Below, piece after piece: positions 3,594 to 37,170 of a stretch of DNA of 47,255 bases. The notes beneath the pieces were generated by a model. That model was given only the letters and a program-made list of their open reading frames with translations, was not told the origin of the DNA and made no database searches. The stretch comes from Actinomycetales bacterium (GTDB taxonomy: Bacteria; Actinomycetota; Actinomycetes; Nanopelagicales; Nanopelagicaceae). Within the stretch, counting starts at the first letter, position 1, and each line of letters starts with the position of its first letter. Position numbers and translations under genes: made by a program. Where the stretch lies: positions 1 to 47,255 of the forward strand of contig JAGWYO010000010.1 in assembly GCA_018969355.1 (NCBI GenBank), written 5' to 3'.

Positions 3594-5036
3594 ATGGAAA
3601 ATTCAGACAAAGCGTTGGATACCGGCAGCAAGCGCGTTTATGACGTTGCGCCATCAGAGATGTTTGGCGAGTTCATGAAAACTGGTTGGGCACCAACGCC
3701 TTTGACTGGAATCGTTCAAGATGAAGTAATTCCTTATTGTGTTGCACGCAGAGCAGATCTTTCAGCTGCTTTCTCTGGCTTACGAGTTGTATTGCCAGGT
3801 GGTGAGTTAAAGCAACGTAGCAATGACACTGATTACCAGTTCCGCCCTCATAGCGCTTTTGCTTACTACACCGGCGTGCAAGGTGTTGAAGCACAGCCTG
3901 GTTCTGTATTAGTCATGGAGCCAACGAAGCAAGGCCACACCCCTATTCTCTTTATTAACCCACGATCTACTCGTGACACTGATGCTTTCTATCGTGATGC
4001 CAAAAATGGTGAACTCTGGGTGGGTCGTCGTTTCACAACTGATGAGGCTGCAGCGCGTTATGGCATTGAAGTGCGCGAAGTAGGTGAACTTGAAGCTTTC
4101 TTAAAAGGTAAAACCGCTGTTGCACTTCATGGTTATGACGAGATTGTGGATGCAAAGGTAAAAAAACATGCACGTGATGAAGAGTTGATTAACTTTGTCT
4201 CTGTTGCTCGCCTTATTAAAGATGAGTATGAAATTCGCCAGATGCAAAAGGCAGTTGATGCTACGCACTGTGGCTTTAGTGATGTAATCCGTGTTCTTCC
4301 TGCAGCAGTTGCCACACCACGTGGTGAGCGCGTTATCGATGCCGCTTTCTATGGGCGTGCCCGTGTTGAAGGAAATGATTTGGGATATAACACCATTGCA
4401 GCCTCTGGTTCACATGCTTGTGTGTTGCACTGGAATCGCAATGACGGTGAAGTAATACCTGGTGATTTATTACTCCTTGATGCCGGAGTTGAAGTTGATT
4501 CTTACTACACCGCCGATATCACTCGCACCTTGCCCATTAATGGAAAGTTCTCACCGGCCCAACGCGCCCTGTATATGTTGGTCTATGAGTCACAAAAAGC
4601 TGGAATTGAAGCGATTAAAGCTGGTGTTCCATTCCTTGAAATTAACCGCGCCAGCCACAGCGTTTTAGCCCAAGGATTAATTGATATGGGAATTATCACG
4701 ATGAGCCTTGGAGAAGTGATGGATCCAGCTGCTGGATTACACAAGCGCTGGACTCTTCACGGTGTCAGCCACATGCTCGGCATGGATGTTCATGACTGCG
4801 CCCAAGCACGCGCAGATCAATATCGCGATGGGATCTTGGAAGCAGGAATGATTTTAACTGTTGAACCAGGTCTTTATATCCAACTCGATGACGAGCTCTT
4901 CCCAGCTGAATACCGTGGAATCGGTATTCGAATTGAAGATGATGTTTTGGTGACAGAGGATGGATGCATCAACTTATCTGAAAACATTCCCCATCACCCA
5001 GATGAGATTGAAAGCTGGATGGCTTCTCTACGCTAG
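3594..5036 (+). CDS. pepP: Xaa-Pro aminopeptidase (M24B family)
   Basis: This is a 480-aa metallopeptidase that removes an N-terminal residue preceding proline, used in peptide turnover. It has an N-terminal aminopeptidase-P domain (about 45-180) and a C-terminal creatinase/methionine-aminopeptidase fold. The dinuclear metal ligands are recognisable: Asp in LLDAGVEVDSYYTADITRT, His in HGVSHMLGMDVHD, Glu in VEPGLY and Glu in IGIRIEDDVLV. The reading frame stays open upstream to 3405, but that extension runs across the tRNA-Ser gene. The ATG at 3594 is preceded by a TAnnnT box at leaderless spacing, so it is chosen as the start. The 3' end overlaps the convergent crcB gene by 9 nt. Confidence 0.94.
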   Translation: MENSDKALDTGSKRVYDVAPSEMFGEFMKTGWAPTPLTGIVQDEVIPYCVARRADLSAAFSGLRVVLPGGELKQRSNDTDYQFRPHSAFAYYTGVQGVEAQPGSVLVMEPTKQGHTPILFINPRSTRDTDAFYRDAKNGELWVGRRFTTDEAAARYGIEVREVGELEAFLKGKTAVALHGYDEIVDAKVKKHARDEELINFVSVARLIKDEYEIRQMQKAVDATHCGFSDVIRVLPAAVATPRGERVIDAAFYGRARVEGNDLGYNTIAASGSHACVLHWNRNDGEVIPGDLLLLDAGVEVDSYYTADITRTLPINGKFSPAQRALYMLVYESQKAGIEAIKAGVPFLEINRASHSVLAQGLIDMGIITMSLGEVMDPAAGLHKRWTLHGVSHMLGMDVHDCAQARADQYRDGILEAGMILTVEPGLYIQLDDELFPAEYRGIGIRIEDDVLVTEDGCINLSENIPHHPDEIESWMASLR

Positions 5037-5363
5037 CGACATACCTAGGGATGCTGCAAGTAAACCAAAGACAAGGGATGCACTTAAGTTAATCGCTGCA
5101 TCTTTATACTTCTTTAACTCATAGGCTAAAAAGAAATCCACCATAAATGTTGACCATGTTGTGAAGGCACCTGCAAAACCAATAGCACAGAGGGCGTAAG
5201 TATTTTGGGCACTTTTCATTGTTAGACCAAATACAAAAGAGCCCACAATATTGACAAGAAAGATTCCGTAGGGCTTATCAGTAAACTTACGAATGTATTG
5301 ATCTATGGCAAAGCGGGCAGGTGCACCAATTGCTGCGCCGAGAATGACAAGAAGAGTTCTCAT
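5028..5363 (-). CDS. crcB: Fluc/CrcB fluoride exporter, subunit 1
   Basis: This is a small 111-aa membrane protein of the Fluc (CrcB) family, which forms dimeric fluoride channels that protect enzymes such as enolase and pyrophosphatase. Four hydrophobic segments are visible. Family signatures are GAAIGAPARF near the N-terminus, VNIVGSF with the conserved Asn, and GFAGAFTTWSTF, where the usual TTFS is TTWS. The ATG at 5363 overlaps the stop of the upstream crcB gene (ATGA), which is typical of a translationally coupled heterodimeric Fluc pair. The gene is last in a minus-strand run that starts with sdhC. Its end overlaps convergent pepP. Confidence 0.92.
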   Translation of the reverse strand: MRTLLVILGAAIGAPARFAIDQYIRKFTDKPYGIFLVNIVGSFVFGLTMKSAQNTYALCAIGFAGAFTTWSTFMVDFFLAYELKKYKDAAINLSASLVFGLLAASLGMSLA

Positions 5364-5713
5364 GGGCGCACCGCAATGACTTTTCTAGCAATAGGAAGAA
5401 CGAGAAGGATGATTATCATTGAAAACATCACATTATGAAAAAGAAATAGCGTCCCGCCCTCTCTTGGTTCAAGAGATAGTCCAGCAACTGCTGAAAATGT
5501 TGTTAAACCTGCGCAAAAGCCAGGCAATAAGAAATGCCGTAAGTTTTCATTACCTCTACGTTGCATTAAAACAAGTAAGAAAGTAGCAATGCCAACACCG
5601 ATTAAATTGGCAGTTAAGGTTGCTTGGCGTCCATCGCTTAACTCAATACCCAACCAGTAACGAACTAGGGAGCCCAAAACACCGCCTAGTGAGACTAGAA
5701 CTAGCGATTTCAG
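5360..5713 (-). CDS. crcB: Fluc/CrcB fluoride exporter, subunit 2 (probable CTG start)
   Basis: This is the second Fluc/CrcB subunit, a four-helix membrane protein carrying the NLIG and GFCAGLTTFSA signatures. The frame has no ATG or GTG. The first common start codon is TTG at 5677, but starting there deletes half of helix 1 and the conserved LGGVLG part of the family's N-terminal GG-x-x-G-x-x-x-RY motif. Reading back to CTG at 5713 gives an N-terminus LKSLVLVSLGG that matches ordinary CrcB starts, and the CTG overlaps the TGA of the preceding gene (CTGA). I therefore propose a CTG start and 117 aa; the TTG version would be 105 aa. Function as a fluoride channel partner of the following crcB is inferred from family and pairing. 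Confidence 0.85.
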   Translation of the reverse strand: MKSLVLVSLGGVLGSLVRYWLGIELSDGRQATLTANLIGVGIATFLLVLMQRRGNENLRHFLLPGFCAGLTTFSAVAGLSLEPREGGTLFLFHNVMFSMIIILLVLPIARKVIAVRP

Positions 5714-12671: not shown

Positions 12672-13349
12672 CTAATGATACCCGAGCACCTTGCGTGCAT
12701 ATGACGGGTTATTTGTAATCAGGACCTCAACACCATTTTCTAAGCAAAAGCGCATATCGTCAGCATCATCTACGGTCCAGACATATAAAGGCTTGATTGC
12801 ATGAGTCATCTCTGGGTGTGAGCGTAGATACCCCACGCTAGGACCAAGAATGGGCGCAGATGTAAAACGCTGCATCAAATAATTGAACCTATCCTCCAAA
12901 AGTGCCACAGTTTTTTGTTGTGGGTTAATCTTTCTAATATTTTCAATTGCTAGCCAAGAAAATGACATCAAGACAATATCTGTTGCTAACTCTTCTTGTT
13001 CTAGTAGTTCTAAAACTTTCTTTTCCACTAAACTTCCTTGAGGAACTGGGTGTTTGGTTTCAATTGCAAGTTCCATATCGTTGTCTCGAGCAAGTTCTAA
13101 TAATTCTTCGAGCAACATCGCTTGTGGGTACTGCTGTTTAATTTGAGGGTAGGTCATCTCGGCGATGCGACCTGCGTATCCAGCGGTGCGCTTCATGTCA
13201 GCGTCATGCCACAACAACATCTGGTTATCTTTTGTCAAACGGACGTCACACTCCATGCCATCAGCGCCTTGATCGACGGCGGCTTTATATGCATCCATGG
13301 TCATCTCTGGGAAATCTATAGAGGCTCCGCGGTGGGCATATATTTTCAT
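12672..13349 (-). CDS. Glycerophosphodiester phosphodiesterase (GDPD family)
   Basis: This 225-aa TIM-barrel phosphodiesterase probably hydrolyses glycerophosphodiesters to glycerol-3-phosphate and an alcohol. Family motifs are AHRGAS at residues 5-10, FPEMTMDAY (where PENT is the usual form), the GADGMECDVRLT segment with metal-binding Glu and Asp, and LLWHD. No signal peptide is visible, so it is cytoplasmic. The ATG at 13349 lacks a Shine-Dalgarno but has a TAATCT box 6 nt upstream. It diverges from pstP across a very short gap and leads the GDPD-pheA-serS-HAD run. Synteny matches glpQ1-pheA-serS proximity in Mycobacterium. Confidence 0.92.
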   Translation of the reverse strand: MKIYAHRGASIDFPEMTMDAYKAAVDQGADGMECDVRLTKDNQMLLWHDADMKRTAGYAGRIAEMTYPQIKQQYPQAMLLEELLELARDNDMELAIETKHPVPQGSLVEKKVLELLEQEELATDIVLMSFSWLAIENIRKINPQQKTVALLEDRFNYLMQRFTSAPILGPSVGYLRSHPEMTHAIKPLYVWTVDDADDMRFCLENGVEVLITNNPSYARKVLGYH

Positions 13350-13355
13350 GATTCA

Positions 13356-13361
13356 AGATTA
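13356..13361 (-). promoter_or_regulatory. TAnnnT -10 box for leaderless GDPD transcript
   Basis: On the minus strand TAATCT is followed by 6 nt and then the GDPD ATG at 13349. No Shine-Dalgarno exists between them. Confidence 0.55.
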
Positions 13362-13369
13362 ACAGGGGT

Positions 13370-13375
13370 TAGGCT
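13370..13375 (+). promoter_or_regulatory. TAnnnT -10 box for pstP
   Basis: TAGGCT lies 7 nt upstream of the ATG at 13383, consistent with a leaderless transcript. It is only 9 bp from the opposing GDPD box, so the two promoters overlap. Confidence 0.5.
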
Positions 13376-13382
13376 TATGCCC

Positions 13383-14156
13383 ATGAGCGCTATTTACTTC
13401 CAGAGCAGTGCGCGCTCGGCTGATGGTTTACAGCGCAGCGGAAATGAAGATTCTGCTTTTGTTTCCGGTCGCCTCATTGCAGTTGCCGATGGAATGGGCG
13501 GACATGCTGGGGGTGAAGTTGCTTCAAAGATTGCAATTAAAGTTCTGCAAAAACTCAGTCCCGTACTTACAAGTTCAGAGATAGATTCTGATTCCATAGA
13601 AGATCTCCTTCTTCACTCACTTTTCACCATCGATTCACAGATTGGCGAATACGCCGAAGAAGCAGTTGAACTTCGTGGGATGGGAACAACCCTGACTGCT
13701 TTACTACTAATTGATTCAACTATCGCTCTCTTGCATGTGGGAGATTCTCGTTGCTATCGATTGCGCGCTAACACGCTCGAACAATTAAGTAATGACCACA
13801 CAGTTATTCAAGAGCTTCTCGATCAAGGCGCTATTTCACAATCTGATGTTGCCGATCATCCGCAGCGCTCGGTTTTAACTCAAGCGCTCATGGGACAGGG
13901 AACGGTCACTCCTGTATTACAGATCTATGAAGTGAAAGAAAAAGACCGGTATCTGTTGTGCAGTGATGGTTTATCCAGTGTTCTGACTGAGAAAGAGATT
14001 AAATCTTTATTAAAGAAATCTGATCGCTCTGATGCTCTTAAAGGGTTAATTGATGCCACTTACATCAATGGTGCACCAGATAACGTCACTGTTATTGTTG
14101 CCGACATAAGCGGTGAAGAAGTGCTCACCAATGAAGTTTTAGGGGCGGCGCAATGA
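13383..14156 (+). CDS. pstP: PP2C-family serine/threonine phosphatase
   Basis: This 257-aa protein phosphatase should reverse the action of the PknB kinase encoded next. PP2C motifs are present: SGNEDS, VADGMGGHAGGEVAS, GMGTTLTALL, HVGDSRCYRLR, LSNDHT, LLCSDGLS and GAPDNVTVIV, which provide the acidic metal ligands. No transmembrane segment follows the catalytic domain, unlike mycobacterial PstP, so it appears soluble. Two in-frame ATGs (13377 and 13383) are possible; 13377 has an AGGGG 8 nt upstream, while 13383 fits the TAGGCT box. I list 13383. Its TGA overlaps the pknB ATG (ATGA), so kinase and phosphatase are translationally coupled. Confidence 0.93.
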   Translation: MSAIYFQSSARSADGLQRSGNEDSAFVSGRLIAVADGMGGHAGGEVASKIAIKVLQKLSPVLTSSEIDSDSIEDLLLHSLFTIDSQIGEYAEEAVELRGMGTTLTALLLIDSTIALLHVGDSRCYRLRANTLEQLSNDHTVIQELLDQGAISQSDVADHPQRSVLTQALMGQGTVTPVLQIYEVKEKDRYLLCSDGLSSVLTEKEIKSLLKKSDRSDALKGLIDATYINGAPDNVTVIVADISGEEVLTNEVLGAAQ

Positions 14157-15703
14157 TTAACTCGCTCTTTGGTGATCGCTACAAACTGGGCGAAATGATT
14201 GGCACCGGCGGTATGGCAGATGTCTATGTTGCCCAAGACACTCGCCTTGCTCGCCAAGTTGCAATAAAAGTCTTGCGTAGTGATTTAGCCCGCGATCCAT
14301 CCTTTGTTGCCCGTTTTAGAAAAGAAGCGTTGGCTGCTGCAGGATTGAATCACCCTGGAATTGTTGCGGTCTATGACTCTGGTGAAGTGCCTGCCCCCTA
14401 CATAGTGATGGAGTTGGTCTCTGGCCACACGTTGCGCGATTTAATTCACGATGGAGAGCGTGTGCCACTCAAACGCGCACTTGAAATCGGTGAAGGAATA
14501 TTGGCGGCACTGGAATATTCACATGAGCGCGGAATTGTTCACAGAGATATAAAGCCGGCCAACATCATGATTACAGATCATGGCGATGTGAAGGTGATGG
14601 ATTTTGGTATTGCGCGCGCCCTTGCAGATCTTGGCGCAACCTTAACTAGCACGTGGAACATTGTTGGAACTGCGCAATATCTCTCTCCTGAGCAAGCGTT
14701 AGGTGAAGTTGCAGATTTGCGCAGTGATATTTATTCAACTGGATGCTTGCTCTATGAAGTATTAACTGGCAAGCCTCCATTTACTGGTGACACACCCGTT
14801 TCAATCGCCTATCAACATGTTTCCGGTGTATTAGTTACACCTAGCAAGATCCAACCTGATTTACCTGAGGGCATAGATGTCATTCTCTCTGTGGCCCTTG
14901 CTAAAAAACCTGAAGATCGCTATCAATCAGCAGGATTGATGCTTGATGATTTGTTTAAAGTGGGAACTGGGCAGGCGCTAACTACAACTATTCCTAAAGT
15001 TACAATCTCGCGTCGCAAAGTCTTAGTGGGCGCATTGAGTTCAATTCTTGCAATTACTGTTATTGCCGCAGGTTTATTTGTTACACGCCCCGCTGGGAAT
15101 ACAAATAATCTGCCTCAAATCCCAAATGTTGTGGGTTTGACTCAAGCTGATGCTCAGGCTCTTTTGAAAGATTATGTTGTAACAATCCAACGTGCTCATG
15201 ATGGACGAATTCCCATAGATCGAGTTGCTAGCCAAATACCTTTGGCGACAACACGTGCACAAAAGGGTTCTGGAGTTGTGTTAACTATTTCAGATGGGCC
15301 GGGAGATGCGATTATTCCTGCAGATTTAGTGGGTATGTCTCTCATCGATGCTCGCGCTGCTCTGAGCGCTGTTGGTTTACTCGTCTCTCGCACAGAAGCA
15401 GTCCCATCTGATGAAGCCCTTGGAACGGTTTTGAAAGTAACCCCAGAGCTTGGTTCAACTATTACCGCAGGTAGTGGAGTTGTCTTACAAATTGCCAGTG
15501 GTCAAGTTATTGTTCCCGCACTTATTGGAGTGGATGCAATTCAGGCTCGAACCCTGCTTGTTCAAGCTGGCTTCTTAGTCAATGCCATCGATGCTTATGA
15601 TGCAAACCAACCTATTGGTGTAGTTATTAGACAAGCACCTGATGGCGGAACTACACAAACTATTGGTAAATCAGTAACCATTACAGTTAATAAAGCACCT
15701 TAA
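14153..15703 (+). CDS. pknB: PASTA-domain serine/threonine protein kinase
   Basis: This 516-aa membrane kinase couples muropeptide or lipid II sensing to control of wall synthesis and division. Kinase motifs are the GTGGMADVY glycine loop, Lys39 in VAIKV, HRDIKPAN with Asp132, and DFG with Asp150. A single transmembrane helix lies at about 288-312. Outside are three PASTA repeats (about 318-382, 384-450, 451-516), each beginning with an IPxxVG- or VPxLIG-like turn. Mycobacterial PknB has four. It overlaps pstP upstream. The stop overlaps convergent pabA by 4 nt. Expected kinase targets encoded nearby are CwlM and PonA, by analogy with mycobacteria. Confidence 0.96.
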   Translation: MINSLFGDRYKLGEMIGTGGMADVYVAQDTRLARQVAIKVLRSDLARDPSFVARFRKEALAAAGLNHPGIVAVYDSGEVPAPYIVMELVSGHTLRDLIHDGERVPLKRALEIGEGILAALEYSHERGIVHRDIKPANIMITDHGDVKVMDFGIARALADLGATLTSTWNIVGTAQYLSPEQALGEVADLRSDIYSTGCLLYEVLTGKPPFTGDTPVSIAYQHVSGVLVTPSKIQPDLPEGIDVILSVALAKKPEDRYQSAGLMLDDLFKVGTGQALTTTIPKVTISRRKVLVGALSSILAITVIAAGLFVTRPAGNTNNLPQIPNVVGLTQADAQALLKDYVVTIQRAHDGRIPIDRVASQIPLATTRAQKGSGVVLTISDGPGDAIIPADLVGMSLIDARAALSAVGLLVSRTEAVPSDEALGTVLKVTPELGSTITAGSGVVLQIASGQVIVPALIGVDAIQARTLLVQAGFLVNAIDAYDANQPIGVVIRQAPDGGTTQTIGKSVTITVNKAP

Positions 15704-33209: not shown

Positions 33210-34202
33210 TTAACGACGAATACCGGCTTTGCGCAGATCAGAGATACGCAAAGTTCCTGTTTTTGCATCATCTTCAGCAGCTAAATAGAGGCGCTGAATT
33301 GCAATAACAAGGGCTTCTGCAATCACATCACGAAAATCAGGACGGGACATACGCCCACTATCGCCAGGATTAGTTTTATAACCCAAATCAATGCGAACTG
33401 CGGGGGCTTTAGTTAGACGCAACAAATCCCACGTCATGGCATGTGTGCGGCAGTTAGCAAAATCAGTACGGGCACATATTTCTCGCTGAACTAATGATGC
33501 AAATCTTTCACCAACGATTGAGTGCACACCGTGCACATCACTTCCATAAAAGTAAGTTGCTGCACCATGTGCGTTTTCATTCTTATAACTATCTTCATGT
33601 AGTGAAATCATCAAATCCGCATTGCTGGTATTTGTGAAAGCAATTCGCTCACTTTCGGAAGGATTATTTTTTTCACCACGCGTTAAGAAGACAGATGCAC
33701 CAAGTGCTAATAAACGGCCTTCAGTACGAACTGCAACATCATAAACAAGTGCATCGTCACCATCAGGGTTTAAAACTATTGTCTTATTGGCAAGTGCAGG
33801 GCCACGATCTTTTTGATTTGCACTCTCGCGCAAGATAGAAGGCGCACCACCAGAGACAATTTTAGTCAAACGGATAAGTGCGATGATTGTTGCCGGGCCA
33901 CATTTACCATCAACGGTTGCACCAACAGATTTCTGGAATTCTTTCACCGCTAACTCAGTGCGCAGGCCGTAGATTCCATCCACCCGCCCACAATCGAAAC
34001 CCATTTCAGTCAAACGTGATTGCAATGCAGCAACATCATCACCATGCATCAAGGGTGGCTCTTGCAGATTTAACGATCTATCTCCGAGTTTCCACTGCGC
34101 TTCTTCAAGTGCGCGGGCCGTGACTTCATCAACAAGACCCGTGACACTTAAACCACGAGCTTGTTGAAAAGACCGGATCTGGGACTCAGAGAGCTGTGAC
34201 AT
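33210..34202 (-). CDS. cwlM: CwlM-like peptidoglycan-binding protein with degenerate amidase domain
   Basis: This 330-aa protein has two peptidoglycan-binding-like repeats (about 3-45 and 50-112) and an N-acetylmuramoyl-L-alanine amidase (Amidase_3) fold (about 140-312). There is no signal peptide. The zinc/catalytic residues are lost: the DPGHGG motif reads NPDGDD (145-150, His replaced by Gly), the usual Glu ligand is not found after it, and the catalytic Glu of the VELGF segment is Asp (RIDLGY). Only His202 (SLHED) remains. Mycobacterial CwlM is a cytoplasmic PknB substrate that regulates MurA and MurJ rather than a hydrolase. Position next to trxA-trxB-murJ matches Rv3915. A regulatory role here is inferred. 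Confidence 0.88.
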   Translation of the reverse strand: MSQLSESQIRSFQQARGLSVTGLVDEVTARALEEAQWKLGDRSLNLQEPPLMHGDDVAALQSRLTEMGFDCGRVDGIYGLRTELAVKEFQKSVGATVDGKCGPATIIALIRLTKIVSGGAPSILRESANQKDRGPALANKTIVLNPDGDDALVYDVAVRTEGRLLALGASVFLTRGEKNNPSESERIAFTNTSNADLMISLHEDSYKNENAHGAATYFYGSDVHGVHSIVGERFASLVQREICARTDFANCRTHAMTWDLLRLTKAPAVRIDLGYKTNPGDSGRMSRPDFRDVIAEALVIAIQRLYLAAEDDAKTGTLRISDLRKAGIRR

Positions 34203-34207
34203 TTTCT

Positions 34208-34531
34208 TTAGGAGAGAAAGCTTTCAAGTTCCTTCAACATCGCAGGCTTTGGTTTGGCTCCAACTATTGTCTTGACGATTTGGCCGTTAACAAAGACGTT
34301 CATAGTTGGAATTGATGAGATTCCATACTTAATTGCAATTGCTGATTCTTCATCAGTGTTGAGCTTTACGATTTTTAGCTTTGAGCCGTATTCGTCAGAG
34401 ATCTCTTCCAGAATTGGTCCCACAGCACGGCATGGGCCACACCATTCAGCCCAAAAATCGACCAATACAGGCGTGCTGCTCTTTAAAACCTGCTCATCAA
34501 ATGTTGCTGTAGTGACTTTACTCGTGGCCAT
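34208..34531 (-). CDS. trxA: Thioredoxin
   Basis: This 107-aa thioredoxin carries WCGPC (Cys about 31 and 34) in FWAEWCGPCRA and the cis-proline SIPTMNVF segment. Two adjacent ATG codons (34534 and 34531) are possible. AAGGAG lies 3 nt before the first and 6 nt before the second, so 34531 is preferred. It is reduced by the thioredoxin reductase encoded directly upstream. The pair corresponds to trxC-trxB2 in Mycobacterium. Confidence 0.96.
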   Translation of the reverse strand: MATSKVTTATFDEQVLKSSTPVLVDFWAEWCGPCRAVGPILEEISDEYGSKLKIVKLNTDEESAIAIKYGISSIPTMNVFVNGQIVKTIVGAKPKPAMLKELESFLS

Positions 34532-34570
34532 CATTTACTCCTTGATATCTATTGGTAGAGGTAGAGAACT

Positions 34571-35500
34571 TTAGTGTCCTGCCAGGAATCTTTCAGCATC
34601 TAACGCTGCGGCGCAGCCAGAGCCAGCTGCAGTGATTGCTTGGCGATAGGTGTGGTCCACCAAGTCACCGCAGGCAAAGACTCCCTTGATATTTGTTCTA
34701 GTGGATCGATCTTCAACTTTTACATAGCCTTCAGCATCTAAATCGATTTGACCAATGATTAATTCACTGCGTGGAATATGCCCAATGGCAACAAATAAAC
34801 CAGTGACATCTAAAGTTGATTCAGATCCATCAACAGTGTTCTTAATCTTTAGACCAGAAACTTTGTCAGCCCCGAGAACATCAATAACTTCAGAATTCCA
34901 TAAGAATTCAATCTTAGGATTATTGGCAGCGCGCTCTGCCATAATTCTTGATGCGCGCAAAGAATCACGACGGTGAATCAAAATAACTTTGTCAGCAAAT
35001 CGAGTTAAGAATGTTGCTTCTTCAACTGCTGAGTCTCCCCCGCCAACAACTGCAATTGTTTGTCCACGGAAAAAGAAACCATCACATGTGGCACACCAAG
35101 AAACACCATGGCCAGATAGACGCTTTTCATTTACTAAACCAATTTCGCGGTATGCACTACCTGTTGCAAGAATGACAGCCTTTGCTTTAACAGTGTTTCC
35201 TGAACCATCTTTCAAAATCTTGATATCACCTGATAAATCCATTTCAACAATGTCATCGGTGATTAACTCTGTGCCAAAGCGCTTAGCTTGCTTTCGCATA
35301 CTGTCCATTAAATCTGGACCCATCACACCATCAATAAATCCAGGAAAGTTTTCAACTTCAGTGGTGTTCATCAGTGCACCGCCTGCAGTTACAGAACCCT
35401 CATAAATAATTGGATTTAACTGCGCGCGAGATGCATAAATTGCAGCTGTGTATCCAGCTGGGCCTGATCCAACTATTACGACATCTCTAACGTCACTCAT
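34571..35500 (-). CDS. trxB: Thioredoxin reductase
   Basis: This 309-aa flavoenzyme transfers electrons from NADPH to thioredoxin. The FAD motif [11 protein letters not shown] lies at about residues 10-20. The redox CATCDG motif is near residue 137, the NADPH motif [12 protein letters not shown] near 154, and the C-terminal FAD segment is [36 protein letters not shown] Shine-Dalgarno precedes the ATG. It lies between murJ and trxA. The sigM gene found at this spot in Mycobacterium is absent. Confidence 0.97.
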
Positions 35501-35532: not shown

Positions 35533-37170
35533 TTATTCCACTTGGCCAGGACGTCGTAAAACGGAGTTCTTGAGATGTCTAATCATTGTGATTTCTTCAA
35601 CACCAGCTGCCTTGCCAGCAATGAGATAGCCAACAAAGGCGGTGGCCATAACGACTACTAACTCACCTAATCTAGCGATTTTACTTATCTCCACACCCAC
35701 CCAATCCAAATACTGGGTTAATGCAAAAAGCGGCACCATCACGGCAAAAGAGGCTCCGAATAGGCGAAGGTGTTGCCCACCAAAATCTTTTAAAGAAATT
35801 CGGCCAGTGTGTTTTTTAAGTAATGACAAAGTGACTAACAAACCAATTAAGTAAGAGATCGAGAACGCTGCACCTAAACCAATTGTCACCCATTGGTTGC
35901 GCAAGGTGAAGAGTGAGAGATAAGAGAGTGCAACGGCAATAATGTTAATGATAAGTATTGAAATAACTTGTGTGCGAGTATCTTCAAAGGCGTTAAAACC
36001 ACGGATCAAAATTAAGTTGATAGAGAATGCAACTAAACCGAAACTTAGCGCAGCTAATACATATCCGATATATCTAGAATCTTCTATTGGAATGCCTATA
36101 AAAATAACGGAAGTAATGAGTGGGCCAAATAACAAGAAAGCAACTGCACTGGGAATAGTAATAACACCTACCAGTCGTATGGCACGAATTAACTGCTCAC
36201 GCACTTCTTCAGCTTTCTTCTCTAGAGCAAGGCGTGAGATGTGAGGCAATATAGCTGTAATGATTGAGATGGTCACAATTGAATAAGGCAACAACATGAC
36301 GAAATAGGCATATGTATAGGGCGTGTAACCAACCCCTCGTTCTATTCCTTCTTGGGCACTTCGCACAGCAGCACTTGTAGCAACGTTTACTGTTACTAAA
36401 TAACCAAGCTGTGAAATCAAAACATAAATCAAAGTCCAGCCTGCTAGACCAAAAGATTTACCAAGTCCCTTTACGCCCCATTGCGGGCGTAGTTTTATCC
36501 CTAATCTTTTTACCACTGGTACTAAAACCAGCGCTTGAACAACCACACTCAGTGTTGTTCCCCATCCTAAGATCTGCACTTGAATATTTGAAATGTTATC
36601 GATGCTCACAGGTGGCGCAAAAACAAGAAAAGCGCCAAATAACGCTATACCAACAATGTTATTAGCTATCGGCGCCCACATCAGCGGGGCGAAGGAACCA
36701 CGGGCATTTGCTACCTGGCCCAGCATCGTAAAGAGGCCTAAGAAGAAGATTTGAGGTAGGCAGTAACGAGTAAATGCAATTGCAATCTCTTTTTCAACCT
36801 CAAAACCAGTGGTGGAAAATTCCGGTGCATAGAGACGAACTAGAGCCGGTGCGAAATACATTCCTAAGGCAACGAGTGCAAATAAAATAATTGAAATTGT
36901 TGTAATTAAGCGTGATGCAAAACCATCTCCGCCATCTTCATGATCAAAAGATCTCACCAACTGTGGAATAAATATGGCAGTTAACGCGCCGCCCACAAGC
37001 AAGTTATACAAAATGTTAGGCATTGTGTTTGCCACATTGTATGTATCTGCAAGTAGGGCTGTACCAAGAACTGCAACAATTAAAATGCCACGGATAAATC
37101 CAGTAATGCGCGAAATAATTGTGCCAAGTGCCATGATCCCTGAGGCGCGGAAAAGTTCATTAGATTTCAT
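35533..37170 (-). CDS. murJ: Lipid II flippase MurJ (MviN family)
   Basis: This 545-aa membrane protein has about 14 hydrophobic helices and the MOP-superfamily start (MALGTIISRITGFIRG), with the NxxPNILYNLLxGGALTAIFIPQ segment typical of MurJ. It flips lipid II for peptidoglycan synthesis. It lacks the C-terminal pseudokinase domain that the mycobacterial protein (Rv3910) has, ending shortly after the last helix. Its start overlaps the 3' end of the upstream gene by 11 nt. Neighbour of cwlM, whose mycobacterial homologue interacts with MurJ. Confidence 0.93.
   Translation of the reverse strand: MKSNELFRASGIMALGTIISRITGFIRGILIVAVLGTALLADTYNVANTMPNILYNLLVGGALTAIFIPQLVRSFDHEDGGDGFASRLITTISIILFALVALGMYFAPALVRLYAPEFSTTGFEVEKEIAIAFTRYCLPQIFFLGLFTMLGQVANARGSFAPLMWAPIANNIVGIALFGAFLVFAPPVSIDNISNIQVQILGWGTTLSVVVQALVLVPVVKRLGIKLRPQWGVKGLGKSFGLAGWTLIYVLISQLGYLVTVNVATSAAVRSAQEGIERGVGYTPYTYAYFVMLLPYSIVTISIITAILPHISRLALEKKAEEVREQLIRAIRLVGVITIPSAVAFLLFGPLITSVIFIGIPIEDSRYIGYVLAALSFGLVAFSINLILIRGFNAFEDTRTQVISILIINIIAVALSYLSLFTLRNQWVTIGLGAAFSISYLIGLLVTLSLLKKHTGRISLKDFGGQHLRLFGASFAVMVPLFALTQYLDWVGVEISKIARLGELVVVMATAFVGYLIAGKAAGVEEITMIRHLKNSVLRRPGQVE

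Follow-up and report, generated by a model that had tools for sequence, protein, structure and literature searches.

Mycobacterial CwlM (Rv3915 / MSMEG_6935) is the closest described system. The available sections of Boutte et al. (2016) reported that it is a cytoplasmic protein that is phosphorylated by PknB and activates MurA, with the phosphorylated form (CwlM~P) raising mycobacterial MurA activity about 30-fold in vitro (PMC4946905). According to the same sections, mycobacterial CwlM does not conserve the zinc residues, a mycobacterial cwlM allele lacking all four residues complements, and 97 actinobacterial CwlM homologues comprise intact and degenerate forms, all without a secretion signal. 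In M. tuberculosis, phosphorylated CwlM binds FhaA and the unphosphorylated form binds the linker of MurJ, as stated in the accessible excerpt of another study (PMC6180346). The available part of a further study indicated that the activation of mycobacterial MurA by CwlM~P needs an acidic REEEL site, the predicted partner of which is MurA Arg346 plus Arg355, and that mutating REEEL had only a mild impact in vivo in M. smegmatis (PMC12723410).

In the present study, we analyzed a cwlM orthologue in the window, which denotes the whole 47,255-nucleotide stretch of DNA. The original prediction held its product to be a regulatory, cytoplasmic pseudoenzyme. Orthology, a dead zinc site, a likely cytoplasmic location and a candidate phospho-tail fitted such a regulatory role, but the pattern had already been published for mycobacterial and actinobacterial CwlM. 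The window pseudoenzyme is thus a new instance of the published pattern (PMC4946905, available sections). The pairing of CwlM with MurA carrying an active-site Asp looks newer than the pseudoenzyme finding.

Gene, domains and neighborhood of the window protein

Pfam analysis revealed two PG_binding_1 stretches followed by Amidase_3 (E 7.6e-25) in the window protein. This order of PG-binding repeats and amidase domain is typical of CwlM, and the first repeat is partly missing here. In the predicted structure (mean pLDDT 80), residues 137-308 superposed on Rv3717 (4m6i_A) with a Z of 23.5 and an rmsd of 2.2 over 168 aligned residues, and residues 51-114 matched the PG-binding domain of SleB; the PDB listing was used solely as a fold lead. 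The structural comparison with zinc amidases, which had been suggested as a check, thus recovered the Amidase_3 fold. The NCBIfam search of the protein returned no equivalog above the cut-off. Orthology with CwlM was evident together with the gene neighborhood (murJ, trxB, trxA and parB/parA), and no other Amidase_3 protein was found in the 1.40 Mb draft genome. The protein was 96% identical to that of Actinobacteria bacterium IMCC19121 and 74% identical to that of Candidatus Planktophila versatilis, with further matches in Nanopelagicaceae MAGs; by these identities, the genome belongs to the Nanopelagicaceae and is most likely from Planktophila.

CwlM measured 330-374 aa in the window's genus, whereas its relatives elsewhere in the family, with fragments excluded, spanned 362-403 aa. 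An upstream extension of the first repeat is impossible because the open frame of the window gene is only 337 aa long. The N-terminus was not hydrophobic, the best 15-residue Kyte-Doolittle mean being 0.9 (a plain hydropathy score and not a dedicated signal-peptide prediction); the predicted lack of a signal peptide was therefore borne out by hydropathy alone.

The murJ-trxB-trxA-cwlM context is retained in the window, and the coordinates of all features are collected in Table 1. Complete MurJ frames in the window's family were 530-589 aa long, versus 1296-1615 aa in family f4. In the class draw, FhaA (PF12401) was found in 258 of 265 genomes outside the family but in none of the 31 from within it. 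It was likewise missing from all 15 family genomes checked individually, which included genus g8 and partly overlapped with the class draw. The sole FHA-domain protein found in the window's genome was about 150 aa long (L005 1276-1725), a size like that of GarA or FhaB, and might serve the kinase as its only phospho-reader. The PP2C gene directly adjoins that of the PASTA kinase (13122-15703). In mycobacteria, rodA, pbpA, pknA and fha genes accompany the kinase and phosphatase genes; none of these was adjacent to the pair in the window. In addition, two adjacent small ORFs at 5028-5677 resembled, by inspection only, a CrcB/Fluc fluoride channel pair.

Table 1. Features of the cwlM locus and of related genes in the window
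Feature	Position	Strand	Basis
cwlM orthologue, catalytically degenerate Amidase_3 protein, 330 aa	33210..34202	-	ORF translation, Pfam
N-terminal PG-binding repeat (residues about 6-39), truncated throughout the genus of the window	34086..34187	-	alignment
Second PG_binding_1 domain (residues 51-113)	33864..34052	-	Pfam; match to SleB domain 6tci, Z 11.8
Amidase_3-fold domain (residues 138-309)	33276..33791	-	Pfam, predicted structure
Equivalent of mycobacterial REEEL, R125-E-S-A128	33819..33830	-	alignment
NPDGDD replacing DPGHGG; no zinc His, shorter loop before second ligand	33753..33770	-	alignment
His202, sole zinc His left	33597..33599	-	alignment
His254, His in 180/181 CwlM rows, intact and degenerate alike	33441..33443	-	alignment
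Asp272 at catalytic Glu position	33387..33389	-	alignment
Tail motif T315-G-T317 (candidate kinase site), in line with mycobacterial TGT tail	33252..33260	-	alignment; PMC4946905 (available sections)
trxA (thioredoxin), upstream neighbor of cwlM	34208..34534	-	WCxPC motif upstream in 94/100 CwlM loci
trxB	34571..35500	-	sequence; named by inspection
murJ, 545 aa, lacking linker and pseudokinase at the C-terminus	35533..37170	-	sequence
PP2C phosphatase ORF (PstP-like; start codon uncertain)	13122..14156	+	sequence
PASTA Ser/Thr kinase (PknB-like)	14153..15703	+	sequence

The zinc site and its distribution among CwlM proteins

Compared with the canonical His-Glu-His ligand set plus catalytic Glu, the window protein retained one of three ligands (His202) and had no Glu. 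The equivalent of DPGHGG was N145-P-D-G-D-D150. The column of the first zinc His held Gly148 or a gap, owing to the shortened loop between ligands 1 and 2, and the second ligand, a Glu, aligned with Asp150 or with a deletion. The original prediction had therefore named the right residues for this motif, with its His-to-Gly exchange now read as Gly148 or a gap. Its missing zinc Glu was a fair description, yet an acidic residue stays under the Asp150 alignment. The single remaining zinc His and the replacement of the catalytic Glu by Asp272 were both confirmed. On its own, the Asp in the last column says little, since His-Glu-His-Asp occurred in 7 of the 53 sequences outside the family. The protein has the fold of an active Amidase_3 zinc amidase but neither its ligand set nor its catalytic Glu, and an active amidase was rejected on the ligand losses. 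As read from the alignment, the window protein would be unable to hold zinc in the canonical site.

Within the order, CwlM was present in 100 of 101 genomes, all of them small, and in each of the 90 good ones; the sole genome without it was 87% complete. Across diverse Actinobacteria, a comparison that had also been proposed as a check, the zinc site was intact in 3 of the 113 distinct family sequences versus 42 of the 53 outside the family, the other 11 being degenerate. Among the 113, three retained the first His, 56 the Glu ligand and 74 the second His, and Asp occupied the last position in 103. The loss of the first His is not a matter of chance, because it was gone in 110 of the 113. An intact amidase site was observed inside the window's own family, in three sequences (L051, L052 and L253) that come from genus g8 and from a named MAG almost identical to it.

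On a CwlM tree of 81 rows, from which the active-site columns were left out, parsimony gave at least five changes between intact and degenerate sites. These changes fell in the f4 group (whose sequences bear mycobacterial-type REEE and TGT features), in the Nocardioides jiangsuensis group, in the window's family minus g8, and twice in f29. Parsimony alone does not show whether sites were lost or gained, but the match of the intact sites to those of active amidases makes loss the natural interpretation. Judged from the sequences, the zinc-site loss in the window's family is independent of the mycobacterial loss.

The dN/dS of the window cwlM was 0.029-0.062 against nine of ten relatives, the tenth being saturated, and low values held in both halves of the gene and in its tail. 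In addition, the TGT tail motif occurred in 121 of 128 family rows. The dN/dS values showed that the gene is under purifying selection and is not a pseudogene. A decaying gene without function would account for the shortened loop and the truncated first repeat, but such decay has practically no chance against a dN/dS of 0.03-0.06 and the retention in all but one genome of the order; a pseudogene was ruled out on both grounds. It is also very improbable that the protein works as an amidase through another metal site, for example Asp150/His202/His254/Asp272. The near invariance of His254 and an acidic fourth position in 112 of the 113 distinct family rows would suit such a site. However, conservation of His254 is just as high in proteins with an intact normal site, so that this residue does not compensate for the loss of that site, and His202 itself was gone in 39 of the 113 sequences with the protein still retained.

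Co-distribution of CwlM with Asp-type MurA and the contact surface

The window genome encodes one MurA (L003 1468-2727, minus strand) plus an AroA-like paralogue. We compared the occurrence of CwlM and window-type MurA in the class draw of 296 genomes, using cut-offs of E 1e-40 and E 1e-100, respectively, which were set after gaps had been seen. The two agreed in 291 of 296 genomes (180 genomes with both and 111 with neither), an agreement that is inflated by shared ancestry because the counts are not resolved into independent joint losses. The window-type lineage accordingly occurred in 180 of 184 genomes with CwlM versus 1 of 112 without it. CwlM stood alone in four genomes (G115, G167, G282 and G360) and the MurA lineage in one (G163); the MurA scores of G282 (8.7e-95) and G360 (8.3e-87) fell between the two MurA groups. 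Both CwlM states occurred within only two families, f22 and f28.

Asp was found at the catalytic Cys position in all 60 MurA sequences read from genomes with CwlM, and these 60 formed one side of a branch with an SH-aLRT of 99, in a tree that warned of long branches meeting. The best MurA of genomes without CwlM carried Cys in 18 of 18 read (30 were tried, and 12 gave none at 1e-60). Among second MurA copies, three in f15 had Asp but lay outside the branch, and five in genomes with CwlM had Cys. The literature matches listed, with subscription papers outside the scope, included no paper linking CwlM to the Asp or Cys type of MurA and none on CwlM in Nanopelagicales.

The residues of the mycobacterial type of contact were absent from the window CwlM and from the MurA of its genome: RESA replaces the acidic site of CwlM, and Ala and Glu occupy MurA positions 346 and 355. 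We examined 60 paired CwlM-MurA genomes, 39 outside the family and 21 inside. Arg or Lys occupied both MurA positions in 37 of 39 outside versus 3 of 21 inside, and the fourth-position acid of REEEL was present in 26 of 39 versus 1 of 21. MurA Asp348 was retained in 59 and His350 in all 60. Strict co-variation of the acid with the two basic residues was not supported, because 12 of the 13 outside-family genomes without the acid retained both. The comparison suggests that the contact in the window's family has either moved or come to matter less. MurA may not be the main client, since the REEEL mutants were mild in M. smegmatis (PMC12723410, available part).

Proposed role and comparison with known systems

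The window protein is probably a cytoplasmic pseudo-amidase that represents CwlM in a streamlined freshwater actinobacterium; the PASTA kinase would act on its TGT tail, and it would tune precursor synthesis via Asp-type MurA. The kinase would most likely phosphorylate the tail, with PP2C antagonizing it, and phosphorylated CwlM would then stimulate the Asp-active-site MurA and in this way adjust the synthesis of peptidoglycan precursors. For the window organism, we infer the cytoplasmic location, the phosphorylation, and the binding and activation of MurA. Two observations count against the MurA model, namely that the mapped mycobacterial contact is not conserved in the family and that FhaA and the MurJ extension are absent. 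The mycobacterial-like role of the original prediction was thus upheld for the tail, the PASTA kinase, PP2C and the Asp-type MurA, but not for FhaA, the MurJ extension and most of the REEEL/MurA charges.

The decay of the interface charges would also be expected if CwlM acted mainly on the neighboring MurJ, a lipid II flippase, or served as a membrane-linked sensor of lipid-linked precursors via its PG-binding repeat, with MurA control secondary or lost. The gene order points in the same direction, as murJ adjoins cwlM in the window and lay near it in most genomes among those listed, and the available excerpt of PMC6180346 describes the binding of unphosphorylated CwlM to the MurJ linker in M. 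tuberculosis. However, the window MurJ has neither linker nor pseudokinase, the part bound in M. tuberculosis according to that excerpt. Moreover, CwlM co-distributes with the MurA lineage, and MurJ was present in all 61 CwlM-containing genomes searched, the search covering only such genomes. We consider a main action on MurJ or as a sensor unlikely, and the control of Asp-type MurA remains the preferred reading.

The pseudoenzyme repeats what is known from mycobacteria, yet it shows that loss of the zinc site is recurrent and that CwlM is retained even where FhaA and the MurJ extension are missing, in actinobacterial genomes that are among the smallest. The near-perfect pairing offers a simple testable rule: does Asp-type MurA need CwlM, and does Cys-type MurA make CwlM dispensable? 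We tentatively suggest, as a possible extension, that CwlM may be the obligate partner of Asp-type MurA, that the two may be lost only together, with a fall back on Cys-type MurA, and that the zinc site may have been discarded at least five times as service to MurA, not amidase activity, was selected. The Nanopelagicales would then have a stripped-down switch of kinase, phosphatase, CwlM and Asp-type MurA that lacks FhaA and in which the contact surface has evolved anew.

Among known proteins, Rv3717 / Ami1 (Amidase_3, zinc bound in 4m6i) shares the fold of window residues 137-308, but it is an active zinc enzyme without PG-binding repeats, and the window protein lacks its ligands. The intact-ligand CwlM homologues from g8, a basal genus of the window's family (L051), and from Kribbella/Jiangella-type genomes (L257 and L259) are orthologous and share the tail type and fold family with the window protein; they retain His-Glu-His-Glu, whereas the window protein does not. 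Mycobacterial CwlM shares with it the architecture, the TGT tail, a degenerate zinc site and the lack of an obvious signal sequence, and the two systems have in common the trx neighbors, a PASTA kinase in the genome and an Asp-type MurA. They differ in that the window protein lost the first His, the second-ligand Glu and the loop, whereas mycobacterial CwlM lost both His, and in that the window protein has a truncated first PG-binding repeat and lacks the acidic residues of REEEL. Unlike the mycobacterial system, that of the window operates with a MurJ without extension and has no FhaA.
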